Shown: positions 20,443 to 28,264 of the stretch, piece after piece
Layout of the letters: each line of letters starts with the position of its first letter
Numbering within the stretch: position 1 is the first letter of the stretch
Assembly: GCF_004101865.1 (NCBI RefSeq)
Contig: NZ_CP026118.1
Coordinates: 2,807,001 to 2,871,000 of the forward strand
Length of the DNA: 64,000 bases
Direction of reading: 5' to 3'
DNA from: Halobacillus litoralis
Lineage (GTDB): Bacteria > Bacillota > Bacilli > Bacillales > Halobacillaceae
The notes under the pieces: generated by a model
What the model was told of the DNA's origin: nothing
Seen by the model: only the letters and a program-made list of their open reading frames with translations
The model's database searches: none
Position numbers and translations under genes: made by a program

Positions 20443-21057
20443 ATGAAAAACAGCTTACTTTTATTAATGGGATTGACAGTCATTCTTACAGTCCTCCCTT
20501 GGGGACAGCGTATGGAAGCGGAATATGGACAAAACTTTCAAGTGATTCCAGATGAAGCCATTCGTCTGCGGATATTAGCGGATAGTAACGATGAAGAAGA
20601 TCAACAGGTCAAACGAGAAGTAAGAGACCAAGTGAATGCGGAAATCACTGAGTGGGTGGAAGACTTGACATCAGTCGAAGCCGCCCGTCAATTGATCGGG
20701 GACCGTTTACCTGAACTTGAAAAGATCGTAGCTGAGACACTGGAAGCCAAAGGTGTCGACCAAACTTATACAGTGGATTATGATTCCAGTGTTACCTTTC
20801 CGACAAAATTGTACGGCTCATATATTTATCCTGCAGGAGAATACGAAGCGATATTGATTACATTAGGCAGGGGAGAAGGGGATAACTGGTGGTGTGTATT
20901 ATTCCCGCCTCTATGCTTCCTGGATTTCTCCAACGGGACGAGTGTTGCTGAAGCAGAAGAAATCCCTGCAGAAGAAGCACCAGTAGAAACAGAAGAAAAG
21001 GAAGAGAAAGAAGTGAAGTTCTTCGTCGTGAAAATATGGGAAAGTATATTTTCCTAG
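20443..21057 (+). CDS. spoIIR: stage II sporulation protein R
   Basis: A 204-residue secreted signalling protein. Made in the forespore under sigma-F, it crosses to the intermembrane space and triggers SpoIIGA to process pro-sigma-E in the mother cell. An N-terminal signal segment (LLLLMGLTVILTVLPWG) is followed by the SpoIIR core IPDEAIRLRILADSNDEEDQ, VKREVRDQVNAEI and FPTKLYGSYIYPAGEYEAI, ending GEGDNWWCVLFPPLCFLD. An acidic tail of about 35 residues is longer than in B. subtilis. ACAGGGAGG SD before ATG 20443. I could not fix a sigma-F promoter. Confidence 0.93.
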   Translation: MKNSLLLLMGLTVILTVLPWGQRMEAEYGQNFQVIPDEAIRLRILADSNDEEDQQVKREVRDQVNAEITEWVEDLTSVEAARQLIGDRLPELEKIVAETLEAKGVDQTYTVDYDSSVTFPTKLYGSYIYPAGEYEAILITLGRGEGDNWWCVLFPPLCFLDFSNGTSVAEAEEIPAEEAPVETEEKEEKEVKFFVVKIWESIFS

Positions 21058-21063
21058 CATATC

Positions 21064-21106
21064 ATCCACACCCCTTTTCATAGAGTAGGAGAAAAGGGGT
21101 GTGGAT
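21064..21106 (+). promoter_or_regulatory. perfect 16-bp stem overlapping the next gene's start region
   Basis: ATCCACACCCCTTTTC (21064-21079) and GAAAAGGGGTGTGGAT (21091-21106) are exact complements. The 11-base loop holds TAGGA of the SD and the right arm includes the GTG at 21101. No T-run follows, so it is a poor terminator and could instead limit ribosome access. Confidence 0.65.
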
Positions 21107-21424
21107 TCTGTTATGTATATTGAAAAAGTGGAAGAAGAGCTCTATCAATTGAAAAAGAAAGATCAAACGATCGGGACTTTCAAACTCATTGAATTTGCGG
21201 GTGACATAGGAAAACTGGAGCAATTGCAGGTCGCTGATCACATCTCTCCGGGGCGGGTGCTTGAAGTCTTTGAAGTTATTCAATCCTTTGTGGAGGAGGA
21301 AGGTTTTGCTGAATTGCATGTGGAAAGTCACTCGCAAACGCTCGATTTTCTTTTACAACATCAACAGTTCAAATTAGATGATGTCGAAAAAAGTTTGTGG
21401 ATATTCACAGTTAACCACAAGTAA
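21101..21424 (+). CDS. small protein between spoIIR and ywlC, possibly GNAT-related
   Basis: A 107-residue (GTG 21101) or 103-residue (ATG 21113) soluble protein starting VMYIEKVEEELYQLKKKD. The middle (HISPGRVLEVFEVIQSFVEE then GFAELHVESHSQTLDFLLQH) has the order of helix and strand seen near the C-terminus of GNAT acyltransferases, but the acetyl-CoA loop is not convincing. B. subtilis carries ywlA/ywlB at this position; I cannot say it is either. The upstream hairpin overlaps its SD, and its 3' end lies inside the DnaA-box cluster. Confidence 0.6.
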   Translation: MDSVMYIEKVEEELYQLKKKDQTIGTFKLIEFAGDIGKLEQLQVADHISPGRVLEVFEVIQSFVEEEGFAELHVESHSQTLDFLLQHQQFKLDDVEKSLWIFTVNHK

Positions 21425-21442
21425 CTGTTAATAAGTGAGTTA

Positions 21443-21476
21443 CTTATACACAAAAAACCTATTTTTTGTGTATAAG
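21443..21476. terminator. bidirectional hairpin formed by two inverted DnaA boxes
   Basis: CTTATACACAAAAAA and TTTTTTGTGTATAAG flank a 4-base loop. The arms contain the first two DnaA boxes; as RNA the same hairpin with A/T runs could end transcripts from the preceding operon. Confidence 0.55.
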
Positions 21477-21590
21477 CTGTGAATAGATATTTTTAGATGC
21501 GTAAAATTACTAACGGAAATTTTGGATATGTGGGTATCTTTGTGGATAACTCGACTCATCATGAGGACATCCTGTGAATAATGTCTGAAT

Positions 21591-21619
21591 TTGCGATATT
21601 TTGTAGAATTATTCATAAT
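21591..21619 (+). promoter_or_regulatory. candidate sigma-A promoter for ywlC
   Basis: TTGCGA at 21591-21596, 17-base spacer, CATAAT at 21614-21619, immediately downstream of the last perfect DnaA box. Confidence 0.4.
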
Positions 21620-21701
21620 AATATTTAGAGAAAAAACAACGGTAGAGAGCCATCCACAAATACATCTTTTATCATTTCTTAGATAAGCAGAAGGAGTACG
21701 T

Positions 21702-22736
21702 ATGATGAGCATGGAAACAAAGGTTTGGAATGAAGCTATTGAATTTGATTCTTCAATAAAAGAGGCGGCACAATTCCTCCTGAACAAGCAAGTCGTCGCC
21801 TTTCCAACAGAGACCGTTTATGGCCTTGGTGCCGATGCTACGCAGGAAGCTGCCGTGCAACGGATTTTCGAAGCGAAAGGGAGGCCGTCTGATAATCCAT
21901 TGATCGTCCACGTAGCGGATAAAGACCAAGTCGAAAAATTGGTGCACGTTATACCTCCTATCGCTCGACAGCTCATGGATGAGTTTTGGCCCGGTCCGCT
22001 GACGATTATTATGGAGAGTAACGGGTCTGCCGCTGAAAATGTCACAGCCGGCTTATCCACAATCGCCATCCGTATGCCTGACCATCCACTGGCGCTCGCT
22101 TTATTACGTACTACGGATCGACCACTAGCCGCCCCGAGTGCAAACCGTTCCGGCAGGCCCAGCCCGACCACGGCTGAGCATGTTTTTCAAGACTTGAATG
22201 GACGGATCGCCGGCATCCTTGATGGTGGACCCACTGGGGTCGGTGTGGAGTCTACTGTTGTTGACTGTACCACCGAAATCCCTGTCATTCTTCGTCCAGG
22301 AGGCGTAACTAAAGAAGATTTGGAACAAGTGCTTCCAGAAGTCATCATTGATCCAGCGCTTGCTAATGAAGAGCAATCTCCAAAATCTCCGGGGATGAAA
22401 TATACTCATTATGCCCCTGAAGCGCCACTATGGTTAGTGGATGGGGAAGAAGATTTCTTCCATGACCAGATGGAAGAGTTATCGAAGCAAGGTTACCGAG
22501 TCGGTGTAATTGCAAGTGATCAGTTGGCTGCTCAATTGGAGCACGCTTCACTGATTACATGTGGATCAAGAGATGATTTAGCGCAAATAGCTGAACGGCT
22601 CTATGGAGCATTAAGAGAATTCAAGAAGGCAGACATCGATATCATCTTATGTGAAACATTCCCGGAAACCGGGGTCGGTGCTGCCATTATGAACCGATTG
22701 ACAAAGGCAGCTGTGAAAAAAATCAAGCAGTACTAA
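21702..22736 (+). CDS. ywlC: L-threonylcarbamoyladenylate synthase (Sua5 type)
   Basis: A 344-residue Sua5/YwlC enzyme that makes threonylcarbamoyl-AMP from Thr, bicarbonate and ATP for the t6A modification of ANN-decoding tRNAs. The YrdC domain spans about residues 15-205 (FPTETVYGLGADATQ; KGRPSDNPLIVHV; RPLAAPSANRSGRPSPT) and the C-terminal Sua5 domain about 230-344, joined by SPGMKYTHYAPEAP. Length matches B. subtilis YwlC. AGAAGGAG SD before ATG 21702. The upstream DnaA-box cluster suggests replication-linked control, as known for the B. subtilis orthologue. Confidence 0.95.
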   Translation: MMSMETKVWNEAIEFDSSIKEAAQFLLNKQVVAFPTETVYGLGADATQEAAVQRIFEAKGRPSDNPLIVHVADKDQVEKLVHVIPPIARQLMDEFWPGPLTIIMESNGSAAENVTAGLSTIAIRMPDHPLALALLRTTDRPLAAPSANRSGRPSPTTAEHVFQDLNGRIAGILDGGPTGVGVESTVVDCTTEIPVILRPGGVTKEDLEQVLPEVIIDPALANEEQSPKSPGMKYTHYAPEAPLWLVDGEEDFFHDQMEELSKQGYRVGVIASDQLAAQLEHASLITCGSRDDLAQIAERLYGALREFKKADIDIILCETFPETGVGAAIMNRLTKAAVKKIKQY

Positions 22737-26894: not shown

Positions 26895-27701
26895 TTATGC
26901 TGCTTTTTCATACATTTGCCTTTCTAAGACAGGACTGTTTCCCTTTAACCTGGATTTGACTCTAAGATGGTTGTAGTAATGCATATATGTCTCAAAACGA
27001 TCTTTGAAATGTTGAATACTATCAAATTCTTCATAGTATAAGAATTCCGATTTAAAGATGCCGAAAAAATTCTCCATCACTGAATTATCATGACAGTTCC
27101 CTTTCCTAGACATACTTTGAGTGATGTTGTGATCTTGGAGTTTCTTTCGGAACTGAGCCATTTGGTAATGCCAACCTTGATCCGAATGGATGAGAAGATC
27201 TTCGTGTTCCTCCTTCTTTTCCAGTGCTTGGTCAAGCATCTCCTCTACAAGAGAAAAAGTCGGTCTTTCGCCTAAGGTGTAGGAAATGATCTCTCCATTG
27301 AATAGGCCAAGGACAGGAGACAAGTAAAATTTCTGGGAGAACACGCGGAATTCCGTAATGTCTGTGACCCATTTCTGATTGGGGCGATCACTCTTGAAAT
27401 GGCGGTCTAGTACGTTATCGGCGGTTTTCCCAACCTTCCCTTTATAAGAGACGTATTTCTTTTGGTTCACCTGACATGCAATGCCCAGCGCTACCATGAT
27501 TCGGTAGACTTTCTTGTGGTTAACCTTATAATTTTTTCTCACGAGGATGTCCGTAATTCTACGGTATCCTACACGGCCATTATGAGTGTTATAGATGAAG
27601 AGAACCCTCCTTTTCCACTTGCGGTCAGGGTCGGGCTGGCTTAGCTTTTTACTGGCATAATAAAAGGTACTGTGTGCTAGGCCGGCGACCTTAATCAGCA
27701 C
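26895..27701 (-). CDS. IS3-family transposase OrfB (DDE integrase core)
   Basis: A 268-residue catalytic subunit from GTG 27701. The rve-type core shows the triad: Asp in WVTDITEFRV, Asp in LLIHSDQGWHY and Glu in GNCHDNSVMENFFGIFKSE. The frame stays open upstream to about 27757 (VIQELRHAF and RLQVLIKVAG before the GTG codon region), so the functional product is probably the OrfAB fusion made by -1 frameshifting in the A-rich stretch at the end of orfA. It ends inside the left inverted-repeat region. Confidence 0.93.
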   Translation of the reverse strand: MLIKVAGLAHSTFYYASKKLSQPDPDRKWKRRVLFIYNTHNGRVGYRRITDILVRKNYKVNHKKVYRIMVALGIACQVNQKKYVSYKGKVGKTADNVLDRHFKSDRPNQKWVTDITEFRVFSQKFYLSPVLGLFNGEIISYTLGERPTFSLVEEMLDQALEKKEEHEDLLIHSDQGWHYQMAQFRKKLQDHNITQSMSRKGNCHDNSVMENFFGIFKSEFLYYEEFDSIQHFKDRFETYMHYYNHLRVKSRLKGNSPVLERQMYEKAA

Positions 27702-27733
27702 TTGGAGGCGGAATGCGTGCCTTAGTTCTTGGA

Positions 27734-28264
27734 TTACTTGCGCTTTTTCTTTTGTGCCGATTTTTCCTTCTCGTGAACTAAGGCATTCAACTTTTTTAAA
27801 TAAGCGTTCTCCGCACGTAATTGTTCGTTCTCTCTCTTAACTGACTCAATAGACTCATCGGTGTTGTTTTTCTTTTCCGACACGGCTTTCGACCCCTTTT
27901 CATACATCCGAAGGGCATCGTATCCACCTTTTTTCCACTTTTCCTTCCACCTTCGAGCCATAGAAGAGTCAGGAATATGGTAAATCGCCGATGCCTCCCG
28001 AATGGAACAACCCGTTCGTTCGATAAATTGAATTAATTCCAGTTTAAAGGCAGGCGAATAGTTTGTATAGGGAAAAACAAAGGCTTGATCACCATGATGT
28101 CGAACCAACTTCACCCAATAGCGAATAGATGAATCATCAACACCTGTTTCTGACGCTAAATCCCTATAACTGATGAATCCTTGTAAGTAGCGTTTAGCAA
28201 TTTGTAATTTCAGTTCTGAACCAAATTTCGTCACTTTAGACACCTCTTTGAAAGTGTCCAACAA
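27734..28264 (-). CDS. IS3-family OrfA, DNA-binding subunit
   Basis: A 176-residue protein with two helix-turn-helix units (ELKLQIAKRYLQGFISYRDL; KLELIQFIERTGCSIREASA) and a C-terminal leucine-zipper-like helix (VKRENEQLRAENAYLKKLNA) followed by a Lys-rich tail coded by an A-rich run. The HTH units bind the IS ends and the zipper mediates multimerisation. The tail codons overlap the upstream extension of orfB in the -1 frame. The start lies within 15 bases of the right end of the IS. Confidence 0.9.
   Translation of the reverse strand: MLDTFKEVSKVTKFGSELKLQIAKRYLQGFISYRDLASETGVDDSSIRYWVKLVRHHGDQAFVFPYTNYSPAFKLELIQFIERTGCSIREASAIYHIPDSSMARRWKEKWKKGGYDALRMYEKGSKAVSEKKNNTDESIESVKRENEQLRAENAYLKKLNALVHEKEKSAQKKKRK

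Follow-up and report, generated by a model that had tools for sequence, protein, structure and literature searches.

Clusters of DnaA boxes situated outside oriC are known from both Escherichia coli and Bacillus subtilis. The E. coli cluster datA, which resembles the cluster described here in being a non-oriC DnaA-box cluster, restrains initiation and works with IHF to hydrolyse ATP-DnaA. B. subtilis lacks both IHF and datA (PMC13220808), and its own non-oriC clusters, as given in Table 1 of PMC4447404, lie at loci that include trmE, tsaD (gcp), yqeG and ywlC, the last with nine sites and an apparent Kd of 0.25 µM for ATP-DnaA. DnaA is described as repressing ywlC in B. subtilis (PMC4447404, PMC12112137), and removal of six clusters as resulting in early initiation (reviews PMC5295017, PMC13220808). 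Holding of DnaA and regulation of genes are hard to separate at non-oriC Bacillus clusters where the two effects coincide; lineages with a gene intervening between the cluster and ywlC, together with a genus carrying a young cluster at argC, provide natural experiments that make the question directly testable.

The cluster analysed here lies in a 64,000-bp stretch of the Halobacillus litoralis chromosome (the window, to which coordinates without a prefix refer). As a predicted DnaA-box cluster it is well supported by its sequence, and its kind is already known from the ywlC locus of B. subtilis; what we add is its conservation in the family and order, the boxes inside the start of ywlC, the cases of separation from ywlC, a phasing of about 10.5 bp, and a genome-wide map of close box pairs that includes argC.

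The DnaA-box cluster upstream of ywlC

The genes in this part of the window are arranged in the order prfA, prmC, spoIIR, a 107-aa ORF occupying the ywlB position, ywlC, mntP, a phosphatase gene and rpiB. The 107-aa ORF yielded no Pfam or NCBIfam match. Pattern search placed 10 DnaA boxes in 222 bp (21396-21617), between the 3′ end of this ORF and ywlC, four of them exact copies of TTATNCACA and six with one mismatch; the initial annotation had reported four exact and at least three one-mismatch boxes in about 190 bases. The features are the following (boxes by pattern search):

20443..21057, plus strand, spoIIR, the upstream neighbour (TIGR02837 over cut-off, PF09551)
21101..21424, plus strand, 107-aa ORF in the ywlB position (name positional only); its last codons hold three one-mismatch boxes
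21382..21388, plus strand, TGTCGAA inside the end of the ywlB-position ORF, matching the Spo0A-box consensus; present at the corresponding alignment position in 22 of 22 genomes of the genus and 0 of 11 of genus g3
21396..21404, minus strand, one-mismatch DnaA box ATATCCACA
21401..21409, plus strand, one-mismatch DnaA box ATATTCACA
21411..21419, plus strand, one-mismatch DnaA box TTAACCACA
21426..21434, minus strand, one-mismatch DnaA box TTATTAACA, aligned with an exact box in many genus relatives
21444..21452, plus strand, exact DnaA box TTATACACA, within the left hairpin arm
21467..21475, minus strand, exact DnaA box TTATACACA, within the right hairpin arm
21478..21486, minus strand, one-mismatch DnaA box CTATTCACA
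21541..21549, minus strand, exact DnaA box TTATCCACA, one of the best conserved boxes of the genus
21573..21581, minus strand, exact DnaA box TTATTCACA, 32 bp from the 21541 box (22 bp in most genus relatives)
21591..21619, plus strand, predicted ywlC promoter TTGCGA-17-CATAAT, weak by itself (one site versus a shuffle mean of 1.8)
21609..21617, plus strand, one-mismatch DnaA box TTATTCATA, overlapping the predicted ywlC -10
21702..22736, plus strand, ywlC, Sua5-type threonylcarbamoyl-AMP synthase (TIGR00057 over cut-off, PF01300, PF03481)
22053..22061, plus strand, an exact DnaA box on its own within ywlC, 350 bp from the start of the gene and outside the cluster

The 270-bp stretch around the cluster holds four exact boxes, and 10 when up to one mismatch is allowed, while 2000 dinucleotide shuffles of the same stretch gave means of 0.041 and 0.68 and maxima of 2 and 4, respectively, so that in the density check proposed earlier the local boxes exceed every one of the shuffles. 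The whole window contains nine exact boxes, compared with 2.66 expected by shuffling, and four of the nine are in the cluster. All exact boxes of the cluster lie upstream of the predicted ywlC promoter; 36 of the 44 family genomes have a promoter-like TTGNNN-17-[CT]ATAAT in the 130 bp preceding ywlC.

The B. subtilis ywlC cluster (region 6 in Table 1 of PMC4447404) has in common with the window cluster the interval ywlB-ywlC, many TTATNCACA-type sites and a place outside oriC, a likeness by locus and not by aligned B. subtilis sequence. In the window, too, several consensus boxes, beyond chance, occupy a few hundred base pairs 3′ of ywlB, as identified by position, and 5′ of ywlC. The initial annotation had named the ywlC region as a known DnaA cluster of B. 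subtilis, and spoIIR upstream, the TIGR00057 match of ywlC and that table all point to the window cluster as its counterpart.

A Spo0A-type motif occurs anywhere in the 700 bp upstream of ywlC in 12 of 64 other genomes of the order, and the match in the window sits in coding DNA. Elsewhere in the window, two minus-strand ORFs at 26895-28264, near glyA, resemble by eye an insertion-sequence transposase pair.

Conservation and helical phasing of the boxes

All 44 family genomes, our own included, have at least two exact boxes in 250 bp within 1 kb upstream of ywlC, and 38 of them have at least three; in 42 the cluster is already found within 330 bp. Exact-box density over the 44 loci is 10.3 per kb in these 330 bp versus 0.18 per kb elsewhere. 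For the order, 150 genomes were drawn, 144 of them outside the family, and 64 were read (24 best-scoring plus 40 mainly one per family; family f33, in which the ywlC match is partial, was left out). The 1 kb upstream alone qualifies in 49 of the 64, from 34 families, and the region from -1200 to +100 contains at least two exact boxes in 250 bp in 59 of the 64, representing 42 of 45 families. The stretches outside -1200 to +100 (mean 3.4 kb) do so in 6 of 64, a control that stands at 39 of 64 if boxes inside ywlC are still counted, and the densities are 6.3 per kb from -450 to +100 versus 0.24 per kb outside.

Among named loci (the best 80 of 591 confirmed), which were sorted by title, the cluster was found in 19 of 22 of Bacillales type, counting as such a locus titled Roseburia (L065) for its spoIIR-ywlB-ywlC order, and in 0 of 58 others, made up of Clostridia, Paenibacillus and a varied remainder in which unplaced bins are numerous. 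Since 5 of the 64 order genomes and 3 of the 22 Bacillales-type loci among these best 80 of 591 have a weak cluster or none, it is not indispensable. Mean column identity across 22 genomes of the genus is 0.92 in the boxes versus 0.77 in other intergenic positions, to be read, like all conservation and phasing figures here, as inflated because relatives are not independent. Outside the boxes, the genus shares a conserved block (ACTAACGG...TTTGGATATGTGG), which by eye looks like degenerate boxes, judging from a fuller box at a like place in L047, and was rejected as a separate element.

The spacings between same-strand boxes peak at 11-12, 21-22, 33 and 43 bp. At a period of 10.5 bp, the vector strength is 0.64 for 238 same-strand pairs from 51 lineages, as opposed to a maximum of 0.19 in 500 random placements; it amounts to 0.69 for upstream pairs only, 0.62 for the 39 exact pairs and 0.71 in nine lineages of the window clade, with random placement reaching at most 0.34 in any of these pair sets. 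Three genomes of the genus have an extra 10 or 11 bp, i.e. one turn, between two conserved boxes, and since two of them (G015 and G018) are sisters, this corresponds to about two events. The third is our own, in which the 21541-21573 spacing exceeds that of most genus relatives by 10 bp, or about one helical turn. We propose that the cluster has been kept in Bacillales because several DnaA molecules are bound cooperatively on one face of the DNA.

DnaA boxes inside the start of ywlC

The majority of the other families read also have boxes in the ywlC start, whereas the window organism has none there. Of 65 tree rows outside the window clade, 58 carry an exact box within the opening 100 bp of ywlC, most often near +29, +41 or +59; within the clade (SH-aLRT 94, quick tree), this interval is free of boxes in 33 of 35 rows, and 41 of the 44 family genomes lack exact boxes over the stretch -60 to +100. 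The boxes outside the clade coincide with particular codons. At the motif VD[KN] near codon 10, V is encoded by GTG in 26 of 27 families and D by GAT in all 27, with a preceding T in 24, and at the motif YPQ all 21 families that have it use TAT and CCA, with a preceding T in 14; these counts take one genome per family, exclude families without the motif and, the families being related, do not represent independent trials. Background usage is 0.28 for GTG, 0.72 for GAT, 0.73 for TAT, 0.32 for CCA and 0.31 for T in the third base. Codon choice at the ywlC start has apparently been held for the DNA in these other Bacillales families. Examples of boxes coded in the first 25 codons (GTG-GAT-AA, TAT-CCA-CA) can be seen in L144, L168 and L183.

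Since the exact boxes of the window lie upstream of the predicted promoter and the ywlC start has no boxes, repression of ywlC in this organism may be weaker, different or gone.

Separation of the cluster from ywlC

Nine loci have other DNA between the cluster and ywlC. An opposite-strand gene intervenes in five genomes of Pontibacillus type (L138-L141, L051); it encodes OsmC in L051 according to Pfam, and by eye the same protein in L138-L141. In G037 (locus L047) an HTH_3 gene and an unknown gene intervene, and ywlB is gone as well; in G023 (locus L011) a repeat-like insert is found downstream of the predicted promoter; and in L056 and L065 there is intervening DNA in which no gene was found. 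All nine loci keep at least two exact boxes beside the 3′ end of ywlB (of spoIIR in L047), those of L065 being about 240 bp after ywlB. The majority of exact boxes lie 0.5-1.1 kb away from ywlC in the Pontibacillus-type genomes and G037. L139 and L141 each have one of their four counted exact boxes within the OsmC gene, and L051 one of its three. As the insert of G023 is downstream of the predicted -10, transcription of ywlC there may still start from the old promoter. These separated relatives suggest that the cluster has been retained to hold DnaA: its persistence fits a site maintained for DnaA better than an operator of ywlC, and does not prove it.

Locus L011 has two similar short inserts, one upstream of ywlC and the other upstream of ywlB, with ends GTTGTTCAAAAAGT and TTTTTGAACA, which appear MITE-like by eye.

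Other DnaA-box clusters in the genome

The genome-wide count proposed in the initial annotation yielded 188 exact boxes in 4.28 Mb, compared with 122 for the reversed pattern (among single boxes of the A/T type, 16 of 116, past C1:3.65 Mb, lie outside the matches listed). As single boxes are only mildly enriched, it is their closeness that constitutes the signal. Close pairs, defined as exact boxes with a gap of 0-30 bp in any of three orientations, with palindromic pairs counted once and every match listed, number 11 in the genome (four inverted, three same-strand and four divergent) and 0 in the reversed control, which over 13 genomes gave a single pair, an inverted one in G017. Three of the 11 pairs are located at dnaA/dnaN, the oriC locus, one each at trmE, tsaD (gcp) and yqeG, three at argC and two at ywlC.

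The product of dnaA, located at C1:2311132-2312454, matches three DnaA Pfam families, and the gene is flanked by clusters on both sides. It is 516 kb from ywlC (C1:2828702) on a contig of 4.145 Mb, which places the ywlC cluster outside oriC, as the initial annotation had it, and without adjacency to dnaA/dnaN. A second origin at ywlC, which was also considered, is not supported, dnaA having clusters of its own at that distance. In 22 genomes, own included, dnaA and ywlC are 135-663 kb apart, and ywlC is always on the arm that lies upstream of dnaA (22 of 29 genomes were used, with G020, G006, G124, G158, G178, G078 and G055 left out for rounded lengths, and 6 of the 22 distances assume a closed circle). 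The coordinate in Table 1 of PMC4447404, together with the length of the B. subtilis chromosome, puts the ywlC cluster of that species at about 416 kb from dnaA, as compared with 516 kb in the window organism.

The clusters at trmE, tsaD and yqeG have counterparts by locus among the non-oriC clusters of B. subtilis (trmE/jag, gcp/ydiF, yqeG/sda, yydA); tsaD and yqeG were tested by family, while trmE, dnaN, ydiF, walJ and htrC were read by eye. After walJ/htrC-like genes come 2 exact and 10 one-mismatch boxes within about 230 bp (L034 5002-5235), an array that, by gene order, is probably the yydA cluster. The tsaD cluster (L031 4313-4517) is situated where tsaD and an ABC-F gene (ydiF by eye) converge, between the ends of the two genes. 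Two clusters adjoin t6A genes (tsaD and ywlC), and a third adjoins trmE, another tRNA modification gene.

Holding site or operator

We read the window cluster, which corresponds to the ywlC cluster of B. subtilis, as probably an old DnaA reservoir, kept in Bacillales as a predicted cooperative DnaA-binding site with a loose link to ywlC. The boxes, their conservation, helical phasing and persistence on separation from ywlC are read directly from sequence. DnaA would bind the boxes of the cluster, the bound copies would lower the level of free DnaA, the more so once the fork doubles the sites, and lowered free DnaA would delay re-initiation. In the window clade, the link to ywlC transcription would be secondary, given that the predicted promoter lies downstream of the exact boxes and can be separated from them. 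The initial annotation had proposed both a conserved DnaA reservoir and replication-coupled control of t6A synthesis; conservation and persistence on separation support the former, while the latter, borrowed from B. subtilis, is putative in this organism.

Alternatively, the cluster could be mainly an operator through which DnaA represses ywlC and ties t6A supply to replication, with titration as a by-product. Repression of ywlC in B. subtilis, as described in PMC4447404 and PMC12112137, is in line with such a role, as are the exact boxes in the ywlC start of 58 of 65 rows outside the clade, the prevalence of GTG (26 of 27 families) and CCA (21 of 21) over their background usage, the weak box overlapping the predicted -10 in the window, and the cluster adjoining the gene for TsaD, another t6A enzyme, in the same genome. 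However, 33 of 35 clade rows lack a ywlC-start box and 41 of 44 family genomes lack an exact box from -60 to +100, a gene intervenes in the Pontibacillus-type genomes and G037, leaving most exact boxes 0.5-1.1 kb from ywlC, and the tsaD cluster, being between convergent gene ends, has no promoter position; we regard a primarily operator role as rather unlikely. Much less probable still is a structured element, such as a terminator or an RNA, in which box-like sequences are incidental. Two exact boxes form a perfect inverted repeat (21443-21476) with 15-bp arms, 21443-21457 and 21462-21476, and 4 nt between them, confirming the hairpin noticed initially, and the single-strand fold is strong (z -4.5), mostly owing to this hairpin. 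It is not conserved, though: a stem of 12 or more is found in 3 of 44 family genomes only, while the boxes are kept, no terminator-like site is predicted in the cluster region, and Rfam gave no match in the five loci searched, and the hairpin was rejected as a functional element. Finally, a low GC content (31% in the cluster region versus 44% in the window) could favour chance occurrence of boxes in AT-rich intergenic DNA, but the shuffle maxima, the lack of reversed-pattern close pairs in this genome, with one in G017, and conservation across families leave it a negligible probability, and it was rejected.

The cluster upstream of argC

The region upstream of argC (TIGR01850) contains four exact boxes in 75 bp (C1:2613420-2613494; L033 4921-4995), 301 kb from dnaA and on the same arm as the ywlC cluster. 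It corresponds to none of the B. subtilis loci compared from Table 1 of PMC4447404, and our search of the literature returned nothing on an argC cluster, or on Bacillaceae for these points, which is no proof of absence from print. Among 30 family loci read, of 39 genomes with argC, three or four exact boxes were found upstream of argC in 13 of 22 genomes of the genus and in 0 of 8 others. In a tree of ArgC plus YwlC, the argC-cluster label needs one change (support 92/87); the eight outgroup rows do not form one side, and G034 groups with the genus. One gain within the genus would be the simplest reading.

On a broader and more tentative view, which we would rate somewhat short of an even chance, the DnaA clusters of Bacillales may have been selected as a distributed, position-constrained reservoir of DnaA and not as a regulon, with the ywlC cluster outliving its contact with the promoter and a new cluster of like design arising a single time at argC, which is on the same arm some 300 kb from oriC. 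In one of the loci (L205), the argC boxes are shifted some 300 bp upstream.
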